From: an uncultured Oscillospiraceae bacterium | Lineage (GTDB): Bacteria > Bacillota > Clostridia > Oscillospirales > Oscillospiraceae | Assembly (NCBI GenBank): GCA_934589705.1 | Contig: CAKTOH010000001.1 | Coordinates: 124,001-188,000, forward strand | Direction of reading: 5' to 3' | Length of the DNA stretch: 64,000 bases | Shown here: one piece after another, positions 42,239-63,343 of the stretch | Layout: each line of letters begins with the position of its first letter | Position numbering within the stretch: the stretch's first letter is position 1 | Made by a program: the position numbers and the translations under genes | Notes under the pieces: model-generated | What the model saw: the letters and a program-made list of their open reading frames with translations, nothing else | The model's database searches: none | Told to the model about the DNA's origin: nothing

Positions 42239-43462
42239 TTATGCCAGCACCGCCTTATGGAAGACCTTCTTACCCTTGCGGATCTTCACGCCTTCCTTGA
42301 GCATTTCCTCGGTGACGGCAAACTGGGCGGAGGGCACCTTCTCGTTGTTCACCAGAACGCCGCCCTGCTCCACCAGCTGCCGGGCCTGCTTGTTGGAGGG
42401 TGCCAGGCCGCAGGCCACCATCAGGTTCAGAATGCCGATCTTGCCGTCTGTCAGCTTGTCGGCGGTGATTTCGGTGGTGGGCATATTGGCATCATCGCCG
42501 CCGCCCACGAACAGAGCCTTGGCCGCGGCCTGAGCCTTGTTTGCCTCTTCCTCGCCGTGCACCAGCTTGGTCAGCTCGTAGGCAAGAATCTCCTTGGCTG
42601 TATTCAGCTGAGCGTCCTTCCAGTCCGCCATGGCGTTGATCTGCTCCAGAGGCAGGAAGGTCAGCATCCGGATGCACTTGAGCACGTCCGCATCCTCCAC
42701 GTTCCGCCAGTACTGGTAGAACTCGAAGGGAGAGGTCTTGTTGGGATCCAGCCACACCGCGCCCTTGGCGGTCTTGCCCATCTTCTTGCCCTCGGAGTTG
42801 AGAAGCAGGGTGATGGTCATAGCGTGGGCATCCTTGCCCAGCTTCCGGCGAATCAGCTCCGTGCCGCCCAGCATGTTGCTCCACTGGTCGTTGCCGCCGA
42901 ACTGCATGTTGCAGCCGTAGTGCTGGTACAGGTAGTAGAAGTCGTAGGATTGCATGGGCATGTAGTTAAACTCCAGGAAGCTCAGCCCCTTCTCCATCCG
43001 CTGCTTGAAGCACTCTGCCCGGAGCATGTTGTTCACGGAGAAGCAAGCGCCGATATCCCGGATGAAATCGATGTAGTTCAGATTCAGCAGCCAATCGGCG
43101 TTGTTGACCATCATGGCCTTGCCCTCGCCGAACTCTATGAACCGCTCCATCTGCTTTTTGAAGCAGGCGCAGTTGTGGTCGATGGTCTCCTTGGTCATCA
43201 TGGAGCGCATGTCCGTCCGGCCGGAGGGGTCGCCGATCATGGCCGTGCCGCCGCCAATGAGGGCAATGGGTCGGTTTCCGGCCATTTGCAGCCGCTTCAT
43301 CAGGCACAGTGCCATGAAGTGACCCACATGCAGGGAGTCGGCGGTGGGGTCAAAGCCGATATAGAACACGGCCTTGCCGTTGTCGATCATTTCCCGGATT
43401 TCCTCTTCGTTGGTGACCTGGGCAATGAGGCCCCGGGCAACCAGCTCGTCATACAGTTTCAT
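42239..43462 (-). CDS. tyrS: Tyrosine--tRNA ligase
   Basis: Class I synthetase of 407 residues. It has [14 protein letters not shown] (HIGH near residue 46-50), the tyrosine-binding [26 protein letters not shown], and a KMSKS variant reading [15 protein letters not shown]. The C-terminal S4 RNA-binding domain (about 345-407) ends [16 protein letters not shown]. The start is the ATG at 43462 with GGAGG 7 bases upstream. It follows a Tyr-specific T-box leader. Confidence 0.97.
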
Positions 43463-43486
43463 ATCAAAACCTCCAAAAATAATCAA

Positions 43487-43734
43487 CGCCCTCTGTCAAA
43501 ATGACAGAGGGCGAAAAATTTCGCGGTACCACCTCAGTTTGGAGAATCCTTGCGGCGTTCTCCCTCACGCCGTCCAGTAACGGCCTTCGCGCTATCGGGC
43601 GTACCCGTCTTCCCCTACTTTTGTTCAAGGAAGCCACTCCGGGAGGTATTTCAGCAACCGGAATCCACTGCCTCGCACCAAGCGGCAGCTCTCTGACGAT
43701 CCCCTGGATACCTACTTCTTCCCATCCACGTGTT
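43487..43734 (-). ncRNA. T-box leader specific for tRNA-Tyr
   Basis: Read on the minus strand, the T-box GGTGGTACCGCG lies at 43533-43522. The specifier codon is TAC (43648-43646) within GCTGAAATACCTCCC, matching Tyr and the downstream tyrS. The terminator is TGACAGAGGGCG/CGCCCTCTGTCA in both arms (43513-43487), followed by TTGATTATTTTT. The leader spans about 270 bases before the tyrS start. Confidence 0.93.
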
Positions 43735-43740
43735 GGTGCT

Positions 43741-43778: not shown

Positions 43779-45428
43779 TCAGCCCCGGAGCATTTCCTCC
43801 GCGCTTTTCAGGGTAGTTTCCGTAATATTCGCGCCGCCGATAATCCGGGCCAGCTCCCGCTTCCGTCCCTCCAAATCCAGAGGCGTGACGGAGGTATAGG
43901 TACGCCCGTCCCGTTCGGACTTGGCAATGAGCAGATGGGTGTTGGCCAGTGCCGCCAGCTGGGGCAGATGGGTCACGCAGAGCACCTGCTTGTGGACAGC
44001 CACGCTTCGCAGCTTTTCCGCCACCTTCTGGGCGGCTCTGCCGGACACGCCGGTGTCCACCTCGTCGAAAATCAGGGTTGCCACCTGATCCTTTTCCGCC
44101 AGCACATTCTTCATAGCCAGCATAATCCGGGCCAGCTCACCGCCGGAGGCCACCCGGCTCAGGGGCTTCAAGGCTTCGCCCGCGTTGGCAGACATGTAGA
44201 AGGCCACCGCGTCCGCGCCGTTTGCCGTCAGCTCCGTTTCCGTGAACCGGCAGGCAAACTGCACTCTCGGCATATCCAGCTGGGCAAGCTCAGACAGAAT
44301 TCGCTGCGACATATTCTCCGCCGCCTGCTGCCGGTTTTCCCGAAGAGCCAGGGCAGCATCCCAGGCTTCCTTTTCCGCTTTTTTCAAATTTCTTTTCAGT
44401 CGTTCCAGCTTATCGTCGGCGAATTCGATTTCATCCAGTTCTTTTTTCGCCTTGTCCAGATATTCCAGAATATCCTCGCAGGTGGTGCCGTACTTCCGGC
44501 GAAGCTTGTGAATCACATCCAGCCGGGACTCGATCTGTTCCAGTTCCTCGGCGGAATAGCTCAGGCTATCCCGGGCGTCCCGAACCTCCTCCGCCGCGTC
44601 CTGAACCTGGTACATGAGATCCGACACCCGGTCGTGGAGAGCCGCGAAGCTGTCGCTGAACCGGGACAGCCGAGCCAGGGCATACTCCGCCTGGGCAAGA
44701 AGTCCCGAGGCTCCGTCGGAATCCTCCCCACCGTAGAGACACTCCACGGCGGTTTCCATGCCGTTGCTCAGCTTCTCCGCGTTTTGCAGCACTTTCCGCC
44801 GCTCTTCCAGCCGGTCGTCCTCCCCGGGCTCCAGCTCCGCCTTTTCGATTTCGGCAATCTGGTATTTGAGGTTTTCCATCCGGCGAAGCTTCTCGCCCTC
44901 GTCCATGGTCAGAGCGCCGATTTCCCGGCGGAGCTTCGCCACCGCCTCGTAGCGTTCCCCGTAAGAAGCCCACAGCTTCCCGTTGTCCGCAAAGGCATCG
45001 AGAAACGCCAGGTGATTTTCCTCATCAAAGAGGGCGGCAGAATCGTGCTGACCGTGAATATTGATGAGCTGGATGCCCAGCTTATGAAGGCTCGTCACGT
45101 TCACGAGGGTTCCATTGACACGGCAGATATTTTTCCCGTCCAGGTGGATTTCCCGGGAAATCACCGTCTCCGGGTCATATTCCACGCCGTTTTCCGCAAA
45201 CCAGGGAAATTCCGGAACATTCGTAAACACCGCCCGGACGCTGGCCCGCTCGGTGCCGGTACGAATCATGTCCCGATAGGCCCGTTCCCCCAGGATGGCG
45301 GAAATGGCATCGATGACAATGGATTTACCTGCGCCGGTCTCACCGGTGAGAACATTGAAGCCACGGTCAAATGAAATATCCGCACACTCAATGACCGCGA
45401 TATTCTCAATGTGCAGTAAGCTCAGCAT
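43779..45428 (-). CDS. recN: DNA repair protein RecN
   Basis: SMC-like ATPase that acts at double-strand breaks. The 549-residue product has Walker A GETGAGKS (29-36), two long coiled coils (about 140-370), the signature LSRVASGGELARIMLA and Walker B LIFDEVDTGVSG. GGAG lies 5 bases before the ATG, 17 bases after argR. Last gene of the OLE-oapA-dxs operon, as in the standard argR-recN pair of Firmicutes. Confidence 0.97.
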   Translation of the reverse strand: MLSLLHIENIAVIECADISFDRGFNVLTGETGAGKSIVIDAISAILGERAYRDMIRTGTERASVRAVFTNVPEFPWFAENGVEYDPETVISREIHLDGKNICRVNGTLVNVTSLHKLGIQLINIHGQHDSAALFDEENHLAFLDAFADNGKLWASYGERYEAVAKLRREIGALTMDEGEKLRRMENLKYQIAEIEKAELEPGEDDRLEERRKVLQNAEKLSNGMETAVECLYGGEDSDGASGLLAQAEYALARLSRFSDSFAALHDRVSDLMYQVQDAAEEVRDARDSLSYSAEELEQIESRLDVIHKLRRKYGTTCEDILEYLDKAKKELDEIEFADDKLERLKRNLKKAEKEAWDAALALRENRQQAAENMSQRILSELAQLDMPRVQFACRFTETELTANGADAVAFYMSANAGEALKPLSRVASGGELARIMLAMKNVLAEKDQVATLIFDEVDTGVSGRAAQKVAEKLRSVAVHKQVLCVTHLPQLAALANTHLLIAKSERDGRTYTSVTPLDLEGRKRELARIIGGANITETTLKSAEEMLRG

Positions 45429-45445: not shown

Positions 45446-45898
45446 TTAGTTCAGCAGGTTTCGGATTTCTCCGCAGAAGGCCGCCGCGGCGTTGGTGTCG
45501 CGCATGATGATGATGACCGTATCGTCACCGGCGATGCTGCCAAGCACCACGCTCCGGCTCATGGTATCCAGCGCCGAGGCCGCCGCGTTGGCAAGACCCG
45601 GCAGGGTGTGAATGACAATGATATTCTGGGCATAGTCGAAGCTGGTGACGCACTCCCGGAAAATGGTGTTCAGCCGTCCCGTGAAGGTGCCGGGCACCTC
45701 TCTCGCCGCCGCCGTATAGTGGTAGGTTCCGAAGCTTGTCAGCTCCTTGATGATCCGCAGCTCCTTGATGTCCCGGGAAATGGTCGCCTGGGTGCTGTTA
45801 AAGCCCGCGTCCCGCAGAGCCTGCAAAAGCTGCTCCTGGGTCTCCACATTGGTGGTGGAGATGATCTCCATGATTTTCGCCTGTCGTTTGGATTTCAC
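45446..45898 (-). CDS. argR: Arginine repressor
   Basis: Hexameric transcriptional repressor and activator of arginine metabolism. The 150-residue protein has the N-terminal winged helix (about 1-70, FNSTQATISRDIKELRIIK) and the C-terminal oligomer/arginine domain (about 75-150, with GLANAAASALD and GSIAGDDTVIIIMRD). The GTG start at 45898 is 16 bases after nadK. Its place in front of recN is the usual Firmicute order. Confidence 0.95.
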   Translation of the reverse strand: MKSKRQAKIMEIISTTNVETQEQLLQALRDAGFNSTQATISRDIKELRIIKELTSFGTYHYTAAAREVPGTFTGRLNTIFRECVTSFDYAQNIIVIHTLPGLANAAASALDTMSRSVVLGSIAGDDTVIIIMRDTNAAAAFCGEIRNLLN

Positions 45899-45914: not shown

Positions 45915-46775
45915 TCACTTACTGAACTTGGAGTTGACTACATCGTAGAAGCTTCGCTCCTTCAGCCGCACCAGCCTGGTCTCCAGGTGGGACTTGCGGA
46001 TGGTGGCCACGTCCCCCATATTCAGCCGCACCGCCCGTCCGCCGTCTACGGACAGATAGGCGTTGCGCCGGGCGTTGAGCACCTGCTCCACGCTCACCAC
46101 CCGCTTGTCGGAGGCCACAATGCACCGGCTTCCGATCTCGTGGGCGCAGATGGGAGTGATGATGATATTTTTCGCCTCCGGCTCCACAATGGGGCCTCCG
46201 GCGGAATAGCTGTAGGCCGTGGAGCCGGTGGGGGTGGAAACCACCACGCCGTCACCGCCGAATTCCATGGCGCTGACTCCATCGCACTTGACGCACAGAT
46301 GGACAATCCGAGCCACCGCCCCTTTGGTCACCACCACGTCGTTCAGGCAGATGTCGTGAAACAGAATATCCCGCTCCCGCTGGACGGTCACGTCCAGCAT
46401 CATCCGGCTGTCCAGAGTGTATTCCCCCCGTGCAACCCTTGTCAGCTTGTCCAGCTCCGTGCTTTCCAGCTCAGCCATAAAGCCCATGGTGCCGATGTTG
46501 ACCCCCAGAATGGGAATCCCCTTCCGGGTAGCGGCCTTGGCCATGTGCAGAATCGTGCCGTCTCCGCCGAAGCAAATTACCATCTCTGCGTTGGGAAGCT
46601 CCCGATCCAGCCGGGAAAACCGCAGGTCTCTGGGAAGCTCATAGCTTCGATCCACCTCAAAAGGGAGACAAATCCGGGTGTTGACCCCGGCCTCCTTCAG
46701 AATCTTCGCCGCCTCCCGGACGGTCTGAAAATTCTTATCCCGATAGGGATTGGGGGTAAGAATCACATTTTTCAC
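45915..46775 (-). CDS. nadK: NAD kinase
   Basis: Phosphorylates NAD to NADP. The 286-residue protein has the GGDGTILHMAKAA motif with the catalytic Asp and NIGTMGFMAELE, followed by DGVVVSTPTGSTAYSYSAGGPIVEP. The GTG at 46775 lies 3 bases after the tlyA stop, so translation is coupled. The surrounding MEP-pathway gene dxs and the repair gene recN are long-standing neighbours of nadK in Clostridia. Confidence 0.96.
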   Translation of the reverse strand: MKNVILTPNPYRDKNFQTVREAAKILKEAGVNTRICLPFEVDRSYELPRDLRFSRLDRELPNAEMVICFGGDGTILHMAKAATRKGIPILGVNIGTMGFMAELESTELDKLTRVARGEYTLDSRMMLDVTVQRERDILFHDICLNDVVVTKGAVARIVHLCVKCDGVSAMEFGGDGVVVSTPTGSTAYSYSAGGPIVEPEAKNIIITPICAHEIGSRCIVASDKRVVSVEQVLNARRNAYLSVDGGRAVRLNMGDVATIRKSHLETRLVRLKERSFYDVVNSKFSK

Positions 46776-46778
46776 TTC

Positions 46779-47588
46779 TTATTCCCCCTTGTCAAGCGTC
46801 CTATGAGCCTGCTCCACAACGAGTGCCGTATCCGGGCAAATGCCGGGCACGTCCGCAAGGCTCAGGTGACCCAGAAACTCAATATTCCCCTCCGGCCCCT
46901 TCACCGGGGAGAAGGTCAGACCCAGGATCCGAAAGCCCAGCTCCTCTGCCAGCGCCACGAAGCCGTCCAGCACCTCCTTATGAGTAGCCGGTTCCCGGAC
47001 AACTCCCTTCTTGCCAACCTTTTCCTTCCCCGCCTCAAACTGGGGCTTGATCAGGCAGAGCACCTGACCGGTGGGTTTGAGAAGGTTCTTGATGGCGGGC
47101 AGGACGATTTTCAGAGAAATAAAGCTCACGTCCACCACGGACAAATCCAGGGGCTCTCCCAGCTGCTCCGGGGTCACATAGCGGATGTTCGTCCGCTCCA
47201 TGACCACCACCCGGGGATCGCTGCGGATTTTCCAGTCCAGCTGACCGTAACCCACGTCGATAGCGAAGACCTTTTTCGCCCCCTGCTGAAGCAGACAATC
47301 CGTGAAGCCCCCGGTGGAAGCGCCGGAATCGCTGCACACATATCCCTCGGGCTTTACGCCGAAGTCCCGCAGTGCCTTTTCCAGCTTCAGACCGCCCCGG
47401 CTGACATAGGGGCACACCGCCCCCCGGACCTCCAGGCTCACGGTTTCCTCATAGGAAACTCCGGGCTTGTCCGCCTTCTGTCCGTTGACATATACCAGTC
47501 CGCTCATAATAATGGCCTGGGCCTTGGAGCGGGTATCCGCGTAGCCCTGCTCGGTAAGCAGAACATCCAGTCGTTTTTTCACTTTCAC
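46779..47588 (-). CDS. tlyA: TlyA family rRNA 2'-O-methyltransferase
   Basis: Methylates 16S/23S rRNA cytidine 2'-OH. The 269-residue product has an N-terminal S4 RNA-binding domain (about 1-65, KKRLDVLLTEQGYADTRSKAQ) and an FtsJ-type SAM methyltransferase (YVSRGGLKLEKAL, DSGASTGGFTDCLLQQGA, VDVSFISLK, CLIKPQFE). The start is a GTG at 47588 that overlaps the dxs stop by 4 bases (GTGA). Hemolysin naming in old entries is misleading. Confidence 0.95.
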   Translation of the reverse strand: MKVKKRLDVLLTEQGYADTRSKAQAIIMSGLVYVNGQKADKPGVSYEETVSLEVRGAVCPYVSRGGLKLEKALRDFGVKPEGYVCSDSGASTGGFTDCLLQQGAKKVFAIDVGYGQLDWKIRSDPRVVVMERTNIRYVTPEQLGEPLDLSVVDVSFISLKIVLPAIKNLLKPTGQVLCLIKPQFEAGKEKVGKKGVVREPATHKEVLDGFVALAEELGFRILGLTFSPVKGPEGNIEFLGHLSLADVPGICPDTALVVEQAHRTLDKGE

Positions 47589-49456
47589 CGGGCAAGCACC
47601 TTCCTTACATATGCGGCAATGGAATCGCTGTCCAGCCCGCACCGCCGATACAGCTCCTTCAGGGAACCGTGGGGCACGAAGTCCCCGCCCAGATCAATGC
47701 CGTGAATTTTACATCCCGGCAGAATTTCCTCCAATGTCCAGCCCAGGCTTTCCCGGATTCCGGAACCGGAGGCCGTTTCCTCAATAATAACTGCCTGTGG
47801 AATTTTTTTCAGGCGTTCCGCCAGCTCTTCGGCGGGCAGAGGCCACACACTGAGCAGCCGGAGGACACAGGCATCGATTCCCTGCTCCTTCAATTGCTCG
47901 GCTGCCGCCAGCACATTGTCGAGAGTCGATCCGTAAGTAATCAGGGCTACCTCCGTGCCTTCCCGGTGACATTGCACCAGGTTTCCTTCCAGACCCTGCC
48001 AGCTGCTTTCCTTATAGCTGCCCTCGGTGCCTCTGGGGTAGCGAATGGCCACCGGGCCGTCGTAATCCCGCACCGCCCAGCGGAGCATGTCCTTCTGCTC
48101 TGCCAGACTGGCCGGATTCAGAATCCGCATTCCCGGCATCTGCTTCAAAAAGCCGATGTCAAACACGCCGTGATGGGTAGGGCCGTCGTCGCCTACCAGA
48201 CCCGCCCGGTCGATGGCAAACACCACATGCAGGTGCAGCAGCGCCGCGTCCTGCATAATCTGATCAAAGCCCCGCTGTAAGAAGGTAGAATACAGGGCCA
48301 CCACCGGAACCATCCCCTGCTTGGCAAGTCCACCTGCCATGGACACCGCGTGTTCCTCCGCAATGCCCACGTCAAAGGTGCGCTTCGGGAATTCCCGCTG
48401 GAAGGCCAGCAGTCCCGTGCCTCCGGGCATGGCCGCGGTAATGGCACACACCCGCTTATCCTGTCGAGCCAGCGCCTGCATGGCAGTACCGAAGCTGTCG
48501 GAGTAGCTTACCACCTTGGGCCCCAGCTTCTTGCCGGTTTCCGGGTCAAATTTTCCGATTCCGTGGAATTTCGCCGGATCCTCCTCGGCAAAGGGATAGC
48601 CCTTGCCCTTCCGGGTCACCACATGTACCACCACCGGCTCCCGCAGTTCCCGGGCGGACGACAGCAGGGACACCAGTCCCGGCAGGTCGTGGCCGTCTGC
48701 CGGCCCCAGGTAAGTAAAGCCCATATTCTCAAAAATGGTAGCAGGCAGCAGCAGCCGTTTCAGCTTGTTCTTCACCCGGCTGCTGAAATTATAAACGGCG
48801 CTGCCCAAAGCGGTTTTCTTCATAAACCGCCGGTAGGCTCGCTTGGCGTCCAGATAATTGTCGCTGGAACGGAGCCGGGACAGATGGCTGGACAGGCCGC
48901 CCACGTTTTTGCCGATGGACATGGTGTTGTCGTTGACGATAATCACCATGGGCTCGCCGCTGACCGCCGCGTCGTTCAGCCCCTCGTAGGCCATGCCGCC
49001 GGTGAGGGCGCCGTCGCCGATGAGAGCCACCACGTCATAATTCTCCTGAAGCAGGGTTCTGGCTCTTGCCATCCCCAGGGCGATGGAAACGGAACTGGAG
49101 GCATGTCCCGCCACAAAGGCATCGGTGTCGCTCTCCTCCGGCTTGGGGAAGCCGGAAATGCCGCCGTACTGCCGCAGACGCGCAAAATCCGCCCGGCGGC
49201 CGGTGAGCAGCTTATGCACATAAGACTGATGACCCACGTCAAATACCAAGCGGTCGATATTCGTATTAAACACCAGCTCGATGGCAACGCTCAGCTCCAC
49301 CACGCCCAGGTTTCCCGCCAGATGTCCGCCGGTTTTTGCCACGCTGGAAATCAGGAACTGCCGGATTTCGTCACACAGTTGATTTCGCTCGCCGTCACTG
49401 AGCTTCAGCAGATCCTCATGGCTGTTTACTCTCTGTAAAATGTCCAATTCTGACAC
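47585..49456 (-). CDS. dxs: 1-deoxy-D-xylulose-5-phosphate synthase
   Basis: TPP-dependent first step of the MEP isoprenoid pathway. The 623-residue product has AGHASSSVSIALGMARAR, GDGALTGGMAYEGLN with the TPP-binding GDG, VNDNTMSIGKNVGGLS, VVTRKGKGYPFAE, DVGIAEEHAVSMAGGLA and DRAGLVGDDGPTHHGVFD. It starts with a GTG, 3 bases after the oapA stop. It is the canonical third member of the OLE locus. ispE of the same pathway is elsewhere in the window. Confidence 0.97.
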   Translation of the reverse strand: MSELDILQRVNSHEDLLKLSDGERNQLCDEIRQFLISSVAKTGGHLAGNLGVVELSVAIELVFNTNIDRLVFDVGHQSYVHKLLTGRRADFARLRQYGGISGFPKPEESDTDAFVAGHASSSVSIALGMARARTLLQENYDVVALIGDGALTGGMAYEGLNDAAVSGEPMVIIVNDNTMSIGKNVGGLSSHLSRLRSSDNYLDAKRAYRRFMKKTALGSAVYNFSSRVKNKLKRLLLPATIFENMGFTYLGPADGHDLPGLVSLLSSARELREPVVVHVVTRKGKGYPFAEEDPAKFHGIGKFDPETGKKLGPKVVSYSDSFGTAMQALARQDKRVCAITAAMPGGTGLLAFQREFPKRTFDVGIAEEHAVSMAGGLAKQGMVPVVALYSTFLQRGFDQIMQDAALLHLHVVFAIDRAGLVGDDGPTHHGVFDIGFLKQMPGMRILNPASLAEQKDMLRWAVRDYDGPVAIRYPRGTEGSYKESSWQGLEGNLVQCHREGTEVALITYGSTLDNVLAAAEQLKEQGIDACVLRLLSVWPLPAEELAERLKKIPQAVIIEETASGSGIRESLGWTLEEILPGCKIHGIDLGGDFVPHGSLKELYRRCGLDSDSIAAYVRKVLAR

Positions 49457-49459
49457 AAC

Positions 49460-50041
49460 CTAACGTTTTGATTTCTTTTTCTTCAGCCGGTTCCAGGCAC
49501 CCAGAAGCCGCCCTACCATATGCACGATCTGGGTACAGGAGCTGACCGCGAAGGTTTTGCCGATGGCCTTTCCTCCCACAGTCAGTCCTGCCACCAACGA
49601 GGACATGACCAGGGAAACCCCTCTGGGCCAGGCGGTATCCACATGGGTCAGGATCAGCGCCGCGATGGTTGCCGACGCGCTGCCGGAGACGACGCCGCAG
49701 ATATCCCCCACCACGTCATTGCAGATGGAGCTGACCCGTTCGGCGTTGCGCAGCAGCCGGATGGCCTCCTGGGCGCCCGGCACCTTCCGAGCCGCCATGG
49801 AATGAAAGGGCTTTTCATCGGCACTGGCTACCGCCATGCCGATAATGTCAAAAACAATGCCCAGCAGCACGATAAAGAGCAAGATCCCGAAGGCCACGGG
49901 AAGAGAGCTGCTGGCCATGACCTCATCGGAGACCAGGCCGATGAGGCCGGAAACCACCAATGTGGTGAAAAAAACCGTGACGACCCACTGGATCGTCCGT
50001 AAACGTTCCTTTTGGGAAGCGTCCATATGGGATTTTGCCAC
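49460..50041 (-). CDS. OLE-associated membrane protein OapA-like
   Basis: A 193-residue membrane protein with four hydrophobic segments (about 17-37, 45-67, 114-130 and 146-165) and the conserved stretch ADEKPFHSMAARK plus NAERVSSICNDVVGDICGV between them. It resembles the DUF21/CNNM-type OapA that binds OLE RNA in Bacillus halodurans. It starts at GTG 50041 with GAGGAG 8 bases upstream. Synteny supports the call: a long structured RNA immediately upstream and dxs, tlyA, nadK, argR and recN downstream. The OLE-OapA complex is linked to cold, alcohol and Mg stress in other species; function here is inferred. Confidence 0.8.
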   Translation of the reverse strand: MAKSHMDASQKERLRTIQWVVTVFFTTLVVSGLIGLVSDEVMASSSLPVAFGILLFIVLLGIVFDIIGMAVASADEKPFHSMAARKVPGAQEAIRLLRNAERVSSICNDVVGDICGVVSGSASATIAALILTHVDTAWPRGVSLVMSSLVAGLTVGGKAIGKTFAVSSCTQIVHMVGRLLGAWNRLKKKKSKR

Positions 50042-50074
50042 AGAAGATTCTCCTCGAAACAGAATAGTCAAAGA

Positions 50075-50690
50075 AATGACGGCGGCAGGCAGGATAAATC
50101 TTACGGCTTAGGTCGGGTTGTTTTTCACCGAGGGGAACCTGCCGTTGCCGCACAGGTCGTTTCCGTTTGATCCCCAGGCTCAAGTGTTGCCAAAAAAATG
50201 AGTACCCGATTGCCACTTAGTCCGTACTGCAATCCCCTGCCTGCCCCTTTCGGACAGCCTAGGTGTTTTCCACGGCGGAGTGTTCCATAATCTTAGCCTC
50301 TTTTGCAAGCATGGTTTCCGGGAGCAATAACCGCGCTGGCCGTGGCCACGGCAGCGGCGGTCTGTTCTCCCTTCCCCGCATGTTCACTTCAAGGCAGGCT
50401 ACGCTGCACACAGCACACGATTCTGTGCACCGCCTTGCAGGTTCATACCTGATTCGTACGCGGCGGGGCCCACATGGGTTCTGCCCGTCGTCGCACAAGG
50501 TTCAAGTCTCCACGGAAACCGGGTCGTATGCCCCATGCCATTGGGACGCGCCCTGGATCCTTAACCCCCAGCATCCACCCAAAACTGGGCGTAATAAGCA
50601 GACACCAGGGACTTCATCGATGTGCCCTTCAAAGGATTTTTAGGCCCTTCCTGGAAAATGGTCACTACGACTAGAATACTGCACCGTCAG
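50075..50690 (-). ncRNA. OLE RNA (ornate, large, extremophilic), predicted
   Basis: The 786 bases between the oapA start and the Nudix gene hold no credible ORF. On the minus strand a promoter at 50724-50696 starts a transcript near 50690 that runs about 615 nt to oapA, close to the roughly 610 nt of known OLE RNAs. Extended helices are visible, such as CAAGGC (50390-50395) with GCCTTG (50432-50437) and the CCGTGGCCACGG palindrome (50339-50350). Position between a promoter and an OapA-like gene followed by dxs is the diagnostic OLE context. Sequence match to the OLE covariance model was not tested. Confidence 0.8.
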
Positions 50691-50695
50691 CTCCT

Positions 50696-50724
50696 ATTTT
50701 AGCATATCATAGCCGAATATACAA
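50696..50724 (-). promoter_or_regulatory. Sigma-A promoter of the OLE RNA operon
   Basis: On the minus strand TTGTAT (50724-50719), 17-base spacer, TAAAAT (50701-50696). Transcription would start near 50690, at the predicted OLE 5' end. Confidence 0.75.
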
Positions 50725-50827
50725 GTATTTATTTAATCCGAAATCTTTTGTCTTCCCGGAATCTCCCTGGTTGCCTGGTAGGAAATCCAACAGATTTTTC
50801 CTCTCCCGGCACAGTCAGTGAATATTT

Positions 50828-51298
50828 TTACGGTACATTTTCAAACCAATCCCGGACAATATCCCGGTGGGTCACGGCAATCTCGATATTCCCGATTTCC
50901 TCCCGGGTGAAAAACCGCAGTTCTTTCGATTCCGCGCTGATCCGCATTTCCGGCTCCTCCGGCAGCTCCAGGCCGTAGACCACGATCACCATCCGCCAGA
51001 CGCTTCCGTCCCGGAAAGCGGCGATCCTGCCCGGATTGTCGTAGACCGCTATCTTCCGGAATCGCTCCCTGGGAATCCGCAGCCCCAGCTCCTCATACGT
51101 CTCCCGGACGATGGCCTGAAGTCCGGTCTCGCTCTTTTTGCACCCGCCGCCGATGAGACCCCAGATGTCGGAATCCCGCCGCTTTTCCAGCAGCAGCCGT
51201 CCCCGGCAGGTAATCACCGCGTTGGCTCCCAGATGAGCCGGCATGGTGGTCTTCGGCGCGTCCTTGGGATCGCAGTTGTAGAAGGTCACAATGGCCAT
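50828..51298 (-). CDS. Nudix hydrolase
   Basis: A 156-residue Nudix hydrolase that probably cleaves a nucleoside-diphosphate-linked compound. The Nudix box is recognisable as GGGCKKSETGLQAIVRETYEELGL, with the REx2EE core. It starts at 51298 with GGAGGAAGAG just upstream. The N-terminus MAIVTFYNCDPKDAPKT is unusual before the first strand. Substrate cannot be told from sequence. It is divergent in function from the OLE operon although on the same strand. Confidence 0.9.
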   Translation of the reverse strand: MAIVTFYNCDPKDAPKTTMPAHLGANAVITCRGRLLLEKRRDSDIWGLIGGGCKKSETGLQAIVRETYEELGLRIPRERFRKIAVYDNPGRIAAFRDGSVWRMVIVVYGLELPEEPEMRISAESKELRFFTREEIGNIEIAVTHRDIVRDWFENVP

Positions 51299-55930: not shown

Positions 55931-56278
55931 GGGGTCGTAAAGGTTTCGACGGGGGTAGTGAGGCTGGAATAGCGGGTCGTGGCGCCTGGCCACGATAAAA
56001 CGGGCAATTTTTAAATTTAACTGACAACAATCCTGTTGCTCTGGCTGCCTAATTAGGCGCCCATCCTCCCCGGAAGGTCCACGAGCCGGGCTAGGGTGTG
56101 ATTTGAGTGGAGACCGTGCGTATGGTAAGCTTTGCCCATACCATGCATCATGAAGCTACTGATTCCCGTAGGGTGTTTGCTCCCGCCGGGATGAGGGAAT
56201 GTAAATAACAAACTGCACCCGGAGAAGTTCTTTCCAAGTTGCCTTCGGACGGGGGTTCGACTCCCCCCGACTCCACCA
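55931..56278 (+). ncRNA. ssrA: Transfer-messenger RNA
   Basis: tmRNA rescues stalled ribosomes with SmpB. The 5' end GGGGTCG pairs with CGACTCC at the 3' end (with one G-U), followed by ACCA ending at 56278. The tRNA-like half has GGTTCGACTCC near 56253-56272. The tag reading frame ends DNNPVALAA before TAA (56050-56052), typical of Clostridia. The pseudoknot domain lies between. It is adjacent to smpB and the cyclophilin gene and is followed by a terminator and a foreign-looking region. Confidence 0.97.
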
Positions 56279-58559: not shown

Positions 58560-59669
58560 TCAGTTGATCTTGATATTCTCCCACAGGGTGTTCAGGTTGC
58601 TGAGCAAATCCGCATCCAGATTCCGGTAAGCCAGCCGGTTGTACTCCGTGGCGAAGTCCCCCAGCTCCGGATACAGAACCGCCATGGTATCCTCGCCCAT
58701 ATCCTCAATATAGCCCTCGTTGGTGTAGACGATGCTGTTGGGGGAAGCGTAGTAGGTGTACTCCGCATTGGCAATGGCAGGCTCCTCGGAGAGCATATAG
58801 TTGATGAAGATCTCCGCCAGCTCCTTGTTCTGGGCGCAGGTGGGGATGCACATGGCATCCACATAGAAGTTGGTGTTTTCGGGATAGTAGAACTGCAAGT
58901 CCACGTTCTCCGCCTGTGCGTCCACCATGGTGAAGTAGTCGCCTGCGTAGTAGGAGCCGATGGCCGCTTCGCCGGACTCCATCATGTTGTAGATCTCATC
59001 CATAACGTAGCTCTTGACCAGAGGCCGCTGAGCCAGCAGCTCGTCATAAGCCCACTGCCACTCGTCCTTGTCGGTGGTATTCACGTCAATGCCCAGCTTG
59101 TACATGGCAGTGCCGAAGGCATCCCGGGAGTTGTTGTACTGAAGGATGTTTCCGGCATACTTCTCGTTCCACATCAGATCCCAGCCGCCTACATCGGCCT
59201 CGTCCACCACATTGGCGTCGTAAATCACACCCACAATACCGTAGGTGTAGGGAATGGAATACTGATTGTCGGGGTCGTAGTACAGACCCTTGAAGGTGTC
59301 CTCAATATACTGATAGTTGGGGATGTTGTCGAAGTTCAGGGGCTGGAGCAGACCCTCGCCCACCATCCGGGCGATCATATAGTCGGAAGGAATGAGCACA
59401 TCGTAGCTCACCGCACCGCTGGAAATCTTGCTGTACATGTCCTCGTTGGAAGCGTAGGTGCTGTAGTTCACGGTCACCTTCTGGCCGTAGTTGGCCTCAT
59501 ACCACTTCTCGAATTCCCGGACGGTCTCGAAGGAGCCTTCGCTGCCGTCGGAAATATACTCGCCCCAGTTGTAAACGTTCAGGGTCAGGCTTTTCTTGCC
59601 GCCGCAGCCGGTCAGGCACAGGCACAGCAGCATGGCAGCCGCCAGGATCAGGGAAATGCTCTTTTTCAT
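58560..59669 (-). CDS. potD: Spermidine/putrescine ABC transporter substrate-binding lipoprotein
   Basis: Extracellular polyamine-binding protein, 369 residues. Signal and lipobox LTGC give lipid-modified Cys22 (MKKSISLILAAAMLLCLCLTGC). Typical phrases are LNVYNWGEYI, SYDVLIPSDYMIARM, YGIVGVIYDANVV and ENTNFYVDAMCIP. It lies 38 bases after potC and ends the potABCD operon. Binding of spermidine rather than putrescine cannot be decided. Confidence 0.94.
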   Translation of the reverse strand: MKKSISLILAAAMLLCLCLTGCGGKKSLTLNVYNWGEYISDGSEGSFETVREFEKWYEANYGQKVTVNYSTYASNEDMYSKISSGAVSYDVLIPSDYMIARMVGEGLLQPLNFDNIPNYQYIEDTFKGLYYDPDNQYSIPYTYGIVGVIYDANVVDEADVGGWDLMWNEKYAGNILQYNNSRDAFGTAMYKLGIDVNTTDKDEWQWAYDELLAQRPLVKSYVMDEIYNMMESGEAAIGSYYAGDYFTMVDAQAENVDLQFYYPENTNFYVDAMCIPTCAQNKELAEIFINYMLSEEPAIANAEYTYYASPNSIVYTNEGYIEDMGEDTMAVLYPELGDFATEYNRLAYRNLDADLLSNLNTLWENIKIN

Positions 59670-59707
59670 AGGAAATCCTCCATTTTTCTCTTTACGATGG
59701 TTAATGG

Positions 59708-60502
59708 TTATTTATTTGCTTCATCCTTTTCGTCCACAAAGTTGCTGATCAGAAGCAGCGTCAGGGTCACGAAAAAGATGATGGTCGCCAGTGCGTACAT
59801 TTTCGGGGTCACGGTTTTCTTGGTCATGCCGTAAATCCGAATGGGCAGGGTCTCAAAGCCATTGCCGGAGGTAAAGTAGCTGATGACAAAGTCGTCCAGG
59901 GACAGGGTGAAGGCCATAATGGCGCCGGTGATGATGCCCGGCAGAATTTCCGGCAGCTCCACCTTGAAAAAGGCACCCATAGGGGTACAGCCCAAATCCA
60001 TGGCCGCCTCCGGCAGGGATTTGTCCATCTGCCGCAGCTTGGGCAGAATCTGCAAAATCACATAGGGCAGGCAGAAGGTCACATGGGCAATGAGCATGGT
60101 CCAGAAGCTCAGGCTGGTAGCCGCCCCGAAAATCCGGCCGATGAAGACGAACATCAGCATCAGAGAAATACCGGTGATAATGTCCGGATTCGTCATGGGG
60201 ATGTCGGTAACGGTATTCAGCACCGCCCGAATGCCCCGGGAGCGGAGCTTGTTGATGCCAACGGCGGCTGCCGTGCCCATCACCGTGGAAATGGCGGTGG
60301 CGCTGGCTGCCAGCACCAGGGTGTTCCGGACGGCCTCCAGGGTGTTCCGATCCTTGAGTAATTCCCGATACCATTTCAGGGAGAACCCGGAGAACACGGA
60401 AAGGCTTTTGGCCTCGTTGAAGGAGAACACCAGCAGCACCGCAATGGGGGCAAAGAGAATGGCAAACACAATGCCGCTATAGATTTTTGCCGAGGTTTTC
60501 AT
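59708..60502 (-). CDS. potC: Spermidine/putrescine ABC transporter permease PotC
   Basis: Inner membrane permease, 264 residues with six membrane helices and the EAA loop EAAMDLGCTPMGAFFKVELPEILPGI near 180-205. It forms the channel with PotB. It overlaps potB by 4 bases and ends with a charged DEKDEANK tail. Confidence 0.94.
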   Translation of the reverse strand: MKTSAKIYSGIVFAILFAPIAVLLVFSFNEAKSLSVFSGFSLKWYRELLKDRNTLEAVRNTLVLAASATAISTVMGTAAAVGINKLRSRGIRAVLNTVTDIPMTNPDIITGISLMLMFVFIGRIFGAATSLSFWTMLIAHVTFCLPYVILQILPKLRQMDKSLPEAAMDLGCTPMGAFFKVELPEILPGIITGAIMAFTLSLDDFVISYFTSGNGFETLPIRIYGMTKKTVTPKMYALATIIFFVTLTLLLISNFVDEKDEANK

Positions 60503-61383
60503 TCTTCATCCCCTCCATAGACGTAGCGGGCGGTGACGTACTTGACCGCCGTCATGCACACCAGCAGAATCAGCATCAGAATAAAAGCAATGGCCGCGGC
60601 AAAATGAAGGTTATTGGCCACATACTGCCCCTCGATGGCATCGCCGATGAGGAAGAACTTGCCGTTGCCCAGCTTCTGAGAAATGTAGAAGGTGCTGATG
60701 GAAGGAATCAGAACCATGGTAATGCCGGAGATGACGCCGGGCATACTCAGGGGAATGATCACCCGCCGCAGGACAGACAGGCTTCCGCAGCCCAAATCCC
60801 GGGCCGCCTCCAGCAGTCTTCCGTCCAGCTTGGCCAGGATCGAGTAAATGGGCAGCACCATATAGGGAAAATAATCGTAGACCATACCGATGATGACCGC
60901 CGTCTCCGTGCCGATGATGTGCACCGGGCCAAAGCCAAGCCGCCCGATCAGGCTGTTCAGAATGCCGGTATCCTGCAAAATCGTCATCCAGGCGTAGGTG
61001 CGGATGAGGAAGTTCATCCACATGGGGATCATGATCAGGGTCACCATGGTCTTCTGGGCCTTCTCCCCTGCCCGGGCCATGATGTAGGCCATGGGATAGC
61101 CCATCAGAAGACAGACAATGGTGGAAATCACCGCCAGCTTCAGGGAGCGCATGAAAATCAGAAGGTAGGTGCGCACCTCCACCGACGAGCCGTCCTCCTG
61201 GGCGATGCTGCTGGTGGCGGTAAAGAACCGGGTCACATTTTCCGTGGTGAAGCCGAACTGGTTATCCGTAAAGGCGTAGTAGGCCACGAACACCAGGGGC
61301 ACCACCACAAACAGCAGCGCCCAGATGCTGTAAGGTGCCAGCGCCGCCCGATAGGCGTTCTTACTGTGTTTCGGATTTCTCAT
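60499..61383 (-). CDS. potB: Spermidine/putrescine ABC transporter permease PotB
   Basis: Inner membrane permease, 294 residues, with six helices and the EAA loop [29 protein letters not shown] near 195-225. It shares 4-base overlaps with potA and potC, so the operon is translationally coupled. Confidence 0.94.
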
Positions 61384-62498
61384 TCTTCCTCTTCACCTCC
61401 GGGGTTGGACAGCTCGTCCAGTTCGTTGGAGAAGGAGGAATAGTCGCCGAACATGCCGGAATACTTGGACTTTTTCATAATGTGGATGGCATCCGGCTCC
61501 AGGGAAATGCCGATGTGGCTCCCCTCCTCCACCGGGTCGGTGGTCTGAATCATCCACTTAAAGCCGCCGATGTCCACAATGGCCTCGTTGTGCACGCCCA
61601 TGAAGGTCACGGAGGTCACAAGCCCCTGGAGCACGCCCGGCTCAGGCTTTACAATGTCCACATCCTCCGGCCGGATGACCACATCCACCGGCTCGTTGGG
61701 GGCAAAGCCCTTGTCCAGGCAGTCGAAAACCTGGCCGCCGAAGCGCACCTTGTAGTCCGCCAGCATGACCCCGTCCACAATATTGCTCTCGCCGATGAAG
61801 TCGGCAACAAAGGCGTTGACAGGCTCGTTATAGATGTCCTGGGGAGTGCCGATCTGCTGAATCTTGCCCTCACTCATGACTACGATGGTGTCGGACATGC
61901 TCAGAGCCTCCTCCTGGTCGTGGGTGACGAAGATGAAGGTGATTCCCGTGGACTTCTGAATCTTCTTCAGCTCCTGCTGCATATCCTTGCGCAGTTTCAA
62001 GTCCAACGCGCCCAGGGGCTCGTCCAGCAGAAGGATCTTCGGCTCGTTGACCAGAGCCCGGGCGATGGCCACCCGCTGCTGCTGGCCGCCGGACAGGCTG
62101 GTGACCCGCCGGTGGGCAAAGCCGGAGAGCATGACCATGCTGAGCATTTTATCCACTTTTTCCTTGATTTCCTTCTTGGGCACCTTCTTTTCCCGCAGGG
62201 GGAAGGCCACGTTTTCAAAGACGTTCAGGTGGGGAAACAGGGCGTATTTCTGGAACACGGTGTTGACGTTCCGTTTGTGGGGGGGCACGTCGTTGATCCG
62301 GTCGCCCATAAACAGCACATCGCCCTGATCCGGGTACACAAAGCCGCCGATGATCCGCAGGGTGGTGGTTTTTCCGCAGCCGGAGGGGCCCAGCAGCGTG
62401 ATAAACTCGTTGTCATGGATGTCCAGGCTGATATTGTCCAGGACAACCTCCCCGTCAAAGGATTTGGAGATATTCTTCAGCTCGATGATTTTTTCCAT
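61380..62498 (-). CDS. potA: Spermidine/putrescine ABC transporter ATP-binding protein
   Basis: ATPase of the polyamine importer, 372 residues. Walker A GPSGCGKT (37-44), signature LSGGQQ (135-140), Walker B ILLLDEP (155-161) and a C-terminal TOBE regulatory domain (about 290-372). The start is the ATG at 62498 with AAGGAAAG just upstream; the frame extends to 62552 but overlaps the leader terminator. First gene after a long leader. Confidence 0.95.
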
Positions 62499-62538
62499 GT
62501 TCTTTCCTTCTTTCTCCCGAATCACAATGAAAAATGAA

Positions 62539-62566
62539 AAGCGGTACGCCAAAAGGCATACCGCTT
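62539..62566 (-). terminator. Terminator in front of potA
   Basis: On the minus strand AAGCGGTATGCC pairs with GGCGTACCGCTT (12 bp with one mismatch, TTTT loop), followed by TTCATTTTTCATTG. It lies only about 40 bases before the potA start, so it must be conditional or end a separate small RNA. Confidence 0.85.
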
Positions 62567-62926
62567 GCGAAACTTCCGTTTATTGGGCTCTGCGAAGGCG
62601 CACCGCTTCCCGGTGTCAACCGTCCACGCGCTCAGAACGCATCCGAAACGCGCAGCCTCGAGAGTCCTCGAACCCGAATCAGATCAGAGTCTATATAGCA
62701 AAGATTACTTTTACTACTCTTATTGACCATTTCACAAGTTTATGCCTGGGGGCACGGTTTATAGTAACCAACTTATAAAACTGAGCTTTTAACTCAATCA
62801 ATAAGGCAACAGAAGTTGCCAACCGCGAACGGTTTTCGGCATTCGACCCGGCTGTCCGTATGGCCTCAGCCGACTTGCGCCGGCGGTCGTATCCTGCTTT
62901 GGAAAGACTCTTTCCAATCGAGATTA
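62567..62926 (-). ncRNA. Long structured 5' leader of potABCD, class unknown
   Basis: From the promoter at 62959-62932 to the terminator above, about 360 nt contain no ORF worth reporting but many hairpins on the minus strand: GGAAAGA/TCTTTCC (62902-62888), GCCGGC/GTCGGC (about 62884-62869), AACCGTTCGCGGTT (62835-62822), GGCAACTTCTGTTGCC (62820-62805), and GAGCGCG/CGCGTTTC region near 62640. I find no T-box, guanidine, SAM or other riboswitch core that I know. Polyamine sensing is a guess from context. Confidence 0.6.
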
Positions 62927-63109: not shown

Positions 63110-63343
63110 GAAGTTCTTAGGGGAATGGCGAAAGCCTGCCGAAGGAGTAACACTCTCAGGCGCCTGATATCAGGTAGGGACTAAGAATGGATGTGGCTCT
63201 GGAGAATCTCAGAAGTGAGTACCGAAGGTGCAAGGCGCAAGCCGAATCTCTCAGGTAAAAGGACAGAGTAAGTACGTTTCCCCTCTTGGCAGCCGGAACG
63301 TGACTTTCTTTCGCTGGAGCATAACGCGTCCGGCGATTTTTTT
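63110..63343 (+). ncRNA. Tandem glycine riboswitch with terminator
   Basis: Two aptamers lie in series. The first (about 63113-63187) has GCCTGCCGAAGGAGTAACACTC and closes with GGGACTAAGAA; the second (about 63193-63268) has the core GAGTACCGAAGGTGCAAGG, CTCTCAGG and AAAAGGACAGAG. The expression platform is GCCGGA (63292-63297) with TCCGGC (63329-63334) and a T7 run (63337-63343). A CTTTCTTTC stretch (63305-63313) can also pair with GAAAGAAAG (63352-63360) by the Shine-Dalgarno site, so glycine may act on translation as well. Confidence 0.95.

Follow-up and report, generated by a model that had tools for sequence, protein, structure and literature searches.

Among conserved bacterial RNAs, OLE RNA, which works at the cell membrane, ranks with the largest; its mechanism is still mysterious, and it has been proposed to span the membrane. 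The question raised by this locus is whether the window (the whole stretch analysed, 64,000 nucleotides from an uncultured Oscillospiraceae bacterium) carries such an RNA in its 786-bp gap 50042-50827, as an earlier note had claimed, and how the RNA and its partner protein would work in this lineage. The gap is the exact interval from the likely start of oapA (GTG 50041) to the stop of a Nudix gene (50828). The claim named its own test, a significant match to the OLE covariance model, and cmscan returned one at 50703-50063 on the minus strand, scoring 414.2 bits where the gathering score is 50 (E 4.8e-119). The match to RF01071 is full length (model 1-616), was found again in the scan of the whole window, and ends 21 nt ahead of oapA on the same strand. 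The window thus carries a genuine, complete copy of the OLE RNA beside the gene of its partner protein (Table 1). The description of the gap as a stretch without ORFs did not hold, as six of them (126, 97, 91, 79, 76 and 66 aa) overlap it; these are mechanical ORFs only, and coding content was rejected.

Table 1. Features of the OLE locus and its neighbourhood in the window.
Feature	Coordinates	Strand	Evidence and remarks
Nudix hydrolase gene	50828..51298	-	PF00293, 51.1 bits; neighbour upstream of OLE
OLE promoter	50696..50724	-	-35 TTGTAT 50724-50719; 17-nt spacer ending TGC; -10 TAAAAT 50701-50696
OLE RNA	50063..50703	-	RF01071 full-length match and covariation; first ~14 nt probably promoter, untranscribed
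5' arm, placed as P3.1/P3, GUAGUGACCAUUUUC	50654..50668	-	pairs with 3' arm
L4 A-rich loop CUAAAAAUCC	50634..50643	-	identical in 100/100 aligned OLE sequences
Palindrome CACAUCGAUG	50615..50624	-	AUCGAU in 83/100; taken as the literature's P4a OapA site, by inference
Loop CGCCCA, taken as P5.1 loop	50586..50591	-	ACGCCCAGU in 91/100; assigned by position and complementarity
Loop UGGCAUG, taken as P6.1 loop	50534..50540	-	CAANGGCAUG in 99/100
L9.3 self-complementary loop UGGCCA	50343..50348	-	UGGCCA in 68/100; the literature's dimer bridge B3
3' arm, placed as P3/P3.1, GAUUAUGGAACACUCC	50277..50292	-	pairs with 5' arm
P13 loop GGCAACG	50143..50149	-	64/100 identical, 100/100 fit GGNRACR; region of the literature's OapB site
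oapA	49460..50041	-	193 aa, CNNM-like membrane protein; GTG start, GAGGAG upstream; linkage and predicted fold
dxs	47585..49447	-	TIGR00204, 661.2 bits
tlyA	46779..47594	-	TIGR00478, 273 bits; start codon unsettled
nadK	45915..46775	-	NAD kinase models, best 240 bits, E 3.3e-71, under equivalog cut-off
argR	45446..45898	-	arginine repressor models, best 158 bits, E 1.4e-46, under curated cut-offs
recN	43779..45428	-	TIGR00634, 561.1 bits

The order Nudix-ole-oapA-dxs-tlyA-nadK-argR-recN holds in the window, and family matches confirmed the stretch from dxs to recN as it had been described. OLE lies upstream of oapA in all 80 fetched relatives (for 14 the sequence breaks off where the contig stops) and in 34/34 further related loci; the gap between the two in the 80 relatives is mostly 10-27 nt, with single loci up to 360. 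A dxs match is present in 80/80 related loci and a Nudix match, at whatever place, in 49/80; the Nudix gene is regarded as a neighbour only, and any part of it in the OLE system is putative. The OLE locus of Halalkalibacterium (Bacillus) halodurans (RF01071) is alike in its full-length architecture, in having oapA immediately downstream and in the partners OapB and OapC, which were found here in relatives. Flanking genes, among them dxs, tlyA, argR and recN, are also shared with H. halodurans. The window differs in belonging to a gut anaerobe lineage, in having an extended -10 promoter of its own directly ahead of the RNA, and in two P7/P8 insertions (14 and 8 nt) that the RF01071 model lacks.

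An own promoter and a start near 50690 had been part of the claim, and they are supported by the TTGTAT-N17-TAAAAT arrangement kept in 66 relatives, whose sequences give the upstream consensus CTTGtATATTC...TaTGcTAa.AT. In the window a TG precedes the -10, as in an extended -10 promoter. A generic sigma-70 scan listed no promoter over its threshold ahead of OLE in the window, because TTGTAT agrees with TTGACA at only 3/6 positions. As the -10 box lies inside the RF01071 match, the RNA start is expected near 50689, about 7 nt past the -10, and the expected transcript is about 627 nt (50689-50063); the earlier note gave about 615 nt. Beyond the close relatives, a TA...T box stands, within the stretch searched, ahead of the conserved GGTGCAG block in 25/32 loci that came from searching the phylum and the family; its distance to the block, taken by eye and with four rows lacking a usable anchor, is variable and often longer than in the window clade. 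RF01071 positions 1 to ~15 align to the -10 box in this clade, where the 5' end of the model is probably not RNA.

Selection on the structure was followed in alignment A1 (the window and 66 complete close relatives); altogether 99/114 loci were used in the OLE alignments, 14 close loci and one distant locus being left out as cut by contig ends, and loop counts refer to 100 sequences, window included. When the Rfam structure is projected on the window, 156/159 pairs are present, of which 138 are standard. In A1, 88.1% of cells pair, against 41-45% with one arm slid. Changes on both sides occur in 53/156 model pairs among 66 distinct close sequences, a value reached in 0/500 shuffles, which ignore kinship. 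Helix 10 (distal P9) is the weak spot, 60.7% paired, and helices 18 and 19 (P13/P12.2, the OapB-binding region) are present with 93.2% and 99.6%. The 18/156 non-standard pairs of the window could be read as decay, the locus being an OLE remnant no longer functional in the gut lineage; yet the conserved blocks are intact, the promoter is conserved, oapA remains an open frame that close metagenome relatives match at up to 99% identity, and compensatory changes run through most OLE helices. On these last changes decay was rejected, and we give it practically no chance. The RNA under selection is of the full-length type, unlike variants 1 (TANB77) and 2 (RF39) of gut symbionts, because P7, P8, P9 and the P13 end are kept; both variants were rejected as assignments, gut hosts being the point in common. 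Many variant-1 OLE RNAs are without the P13/P12.2 OapB-binding region, which the window has.

Model positions 1-53 are unpaired in the Rfam structure. In our sequences two segments flanking domain 1 pair with each other: native arms reach a mean of -15.5 kcal/mol versus -8.3 for swapped arms (97/100 sequences, the three without usable anchors left out), and 524/9,312 swaps (74 distinct 5' and 79 distinct 3' arms) were more stable than the native pair. U-U mismatches lie mid-helix in the putative P3 of the window. Calling this covarying helix P3 is our own placement; P3 is known from the literature, what is new is its support in these sequences, and the covariation-supported helix is an addition to Rfam's structure, which lacks it. 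The length of the P3 5' segment is constant (24-25 nt in 100/100), which is no proof of a membrane ruler because other segments hardly vary more (P5-P6, 41-42 nt; L5-L6, 46-48 nt). Lengths of P7, P8, P10-P12 and the 3' end were not used, their anchors being loose (n 86 to 100) and some rows clearly mis-anchored.

Excerpts of the cryo-EM study of Clostridium acetobutylicum OLE (PMC12286853) and of a review (PMC12265935) place the contacts of the OLE dimer at L4, P5.1/P6.1 and L9.3, with L4 as bridge B1 in the former and the P5.1 loop kissing P6.1 of the other chain in the latter. The sequences of all these contacts appear to be kept here, the loop assignments being partly inferred. Relative to the cryo-EM dimers of C. 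acetobutylicum and C. botulinum, the L4 A-A bridge, the P5.1/P6.1 kissing loops and a palindromic L9.3 would be retained, whereas the sequence of L9.3 and the P7/P8 region vary between lineages; for the window, the comparison is one of primary sequence. Other self-complementary L9.3 hexamers among the 100 sequences are GGGCCC (13), AGGCCU (3), CGGCCG, UGCGCA and GAGCUC (2 each), and in 10/100 the loop is not fully palindromic over six bases (CGGCCA 6, UGGGCC 2, AGGCCA 1, AGGGCC 1). Passages of PMC9723947 and PMC12265935 place OapA binding near P4a, the site to which the palindrome in Table 1 was assigned.

The earlier note also described a four-helix, OapA-like membrane protein right after the RNA, and both points were borne out. 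The mechanical ORF list begins the oapA frame at TTG 50071, the likely start being the GTG 30 nt further on. The structure model, built from 56/115 OapA sequences, predicts four long helices plus shorter ones in a CNNM-like fold, in which residues 46-183 superpose on CNNM. Pfam CNNM (PF01595) scores 11.7 bits in the window protein, under the cut-off of 28.4; the Pfam search found no CBS or CorC domain, no OapA model is among its Pfam and NCBIfam matches, and the PDB gave no sequence match. In its linkage to OLE, its fold and its weak CNNM resemblance, which excerpts of PMC11332333 report for OapA, the protein behaves as OapA. Compared with the CNNM/CorC Mg2+ transporters MpfA and MtCorB, OapA is predicted to share the fold but differs in its extra N-terminal helix, its length and its lack of a detected CBS/CorC domain. 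Lysines and arginines number 18 in the N-end, central loop and C-end of the window OapA versus one in the two outer loops, and they gather at both ends and the central loop in 115/115 OapA sequences (TM segments set by eye; K+R inside segments, mean 1.05 in TM1 and 2.24 in TM4, left out of the count). CNNM proteins are oriented N-out, C-in. From this orientation and the charge pattern, the basic cluster is assumed to be the cytoplasmic face, and the 115/115 pattern and the CNNM-like core suggest that OapA seems to have one fixed topology.

The genes of the other partners were sought in related genomes. An L7Ae-type protein is present in 7/8 genomes of named relatives, beside rpsL (named from its sequence) in 7/7. 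Two related genomes (loci L081 and L084) have a further gene beside rpsL and the OapC-like gene; we take it to be potD-like. One L7Ae-type protein matches the PDB sequences of YbxF (4lck, E 8.2e-16) and 3v7e (6.6e-16), and L7Ae-type/YbxF is the family of OapC in excerpts of PMC9723947. An OapB homologue, located by its place after map, directly follows that gene in 4/4 near genomes whose contigs cover the place, with infA adjoining in 1/4, and in five distant genomes it has map on one side and infA on the other (both neighbours named from their sequences). A distant homologue matches 7k9b, 'OLE-associated protein B', at 1.1e-14 and a clade one at 5e-6. Searches with Pfam KOW (PF00467), run on 8 and on 12 genomes, mostly picked up ORFs with the lengths of NusG and L24, the OapB found later not passing the cut-off, and a crude hydropathy scan saw a strongly hydrophobic export signal in 0/9 OapB sequences (in two the start is unsettled). 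Both bS21 and Spo0A_C occur in 8/8 related genomes; the latter makes the earlier label of spore-former plausible, on the evidence of these relatives.

Since OLE and oapA share a strand with 21 nt between them and no terminator-like site is listed there, a single transcript could also serve for the translation of oapA, and the region might be no independent RNA, just the long structured leader at the 5' end of oapA with a cis-regulatory role. We consider this very improbable: the match is full length to a class known, in passages of PMC9723947, as a separate abundant RNA, structure and dimer-contact loops are conserved along the whole length, and the partner genes of the RNA are present in relatives. 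The best explanation overall, which we hold to be almost certainly correct, is an independent OLE RNA of about 627 nt, made from its own extended -10 promoter with OapA encoded directly after it, and most likely functioning as published. By analogy with the literature, the RNA would dimerise through domain 1 (L4, P5.1/P6.1, L9.3), most likely as in H. halodurans, OapA would hold it at the cytoplasmic membrane, and with OapA, OapB, OapC and bS21 it would form a particle responsive to stress and Mg2+ that may do the work for which other cells use MpfA-type Mg2+ transporters. Complete CNNM (MpfA-type) domains were found in 1/8 near-relative genomes and, at E<1e-30 in the family sample, in 9/41 OLE-bearing against 33/39 OLE-lacking genomes (39 searched out of 109; Fisher p 1.3e-8, ignoring kinship). 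Weaker CNNM matches in OLE-bearing genomes are mostly OapA itself, next to the OLE match. The inverse distribution given in excerpts of PMC11332333 is thereby seen again within a single family.

The membrane question can also be addressed. A 2025 proposal has OLE RNA crossing the membrane through P3, with an option of antiparallel OapA; passages of PMC12265935 note that OapB, if still bound to OLE, would then have to be outside. Should the topology of OapA be fixed, OapA molecules in opposite orientations could not bind the two palindromic OapA sites flanking P3 from the two sides of the membrane, and the K/R pattern weighs, as a sequence feature, against the antiparallel option. The domain 2 ligand OapB is, in these genomes, a small protein whose gene follows map and in which no export signal is evident. 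With a fixed OapA topology and a leaderless OapB, we lean slightly towards domain 2 lying in the cytoplasm and P3 forming a rigid rod alongside the membrane, as opposed to an RNA embedded in it; the constant length of P3 fits either view.

The earlier note, by which few OLE RNAs had been studied outside B. halodurans, overstated their rarity. The search of named genomes with the window OapA gave 311 relatives, of which the best 80 were kept; among these the nearest (locus L001, genome G001) has 82% OapA identity. OLE passes the cut-off in 41/150 sampled genomes of the family of G001 and in 284/398 of its phylum. Excerpts of PMC11332333 count 2,822 Bacillota OLE hits and name uncultured gut groups among the carriers, and partial cryo-EM structures exist for OLE RNAs of two Clostridium species (PMC12286853, PMC12265935, also in excerpt). 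The locus is therefore a further member of a well-mapped class. In the OapA protein search at least 7,998 matches passed (8,000 candidates scored), and one OapA 97% identical to that of the window stands for 459 contigs. Contig titles of many relatives among the best 80 of 311 name gut samples of goat, sheep, buffalo, deer, yak, rabbit or cow; among the literature matches listed for OLE RNA with the gut or Oscillospiraceae, none names OLE RNA. The locus adds nothing categorically new, being an ordinary member of a remarkable family; it points to the full set of OLE components in a lineage that is frequent in animal guts, and the new detail lies in the promoter, the likely 5' end, the support for P3 and the OapA charge test bearing on the membrane-spanning model.

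Six genomes have several OLE matches each. In four (G340, G422, G371, G391) at least one piece begins no more than ~120 bases into its contig, a position that points to contig breaks. In two others, G274 (L140, L144, L149) and G309 (L141, L146), the matches cover model positions 54-277 and 286-435 and not the 3' part there; these may be truncated genes or contig breaks.

Other structured RNAs were observed in the window. An Rfam SpF59/ldcC match (62836-62889, minus strand, 68.6 bits) lies just upstream of an operon at 58560-62552 (-), presumably potABCD-like for polyamine transport, and may be its regulatory leader. A glycine riboswitch aptamer (63189-63276, +) is followed by an ORF from 63371 (+) that runs off the window and that we take to be sodium:amino-acid symporter-like. 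A T-box leader (43504-43737, -) precedes ORF 42239-43486, presumably a tyrosyl-tRNA synthetase, and a tmRNA with the tag DNNPVALAA was identified at 55931-56278 (+) by ARAGORN and Rfam.
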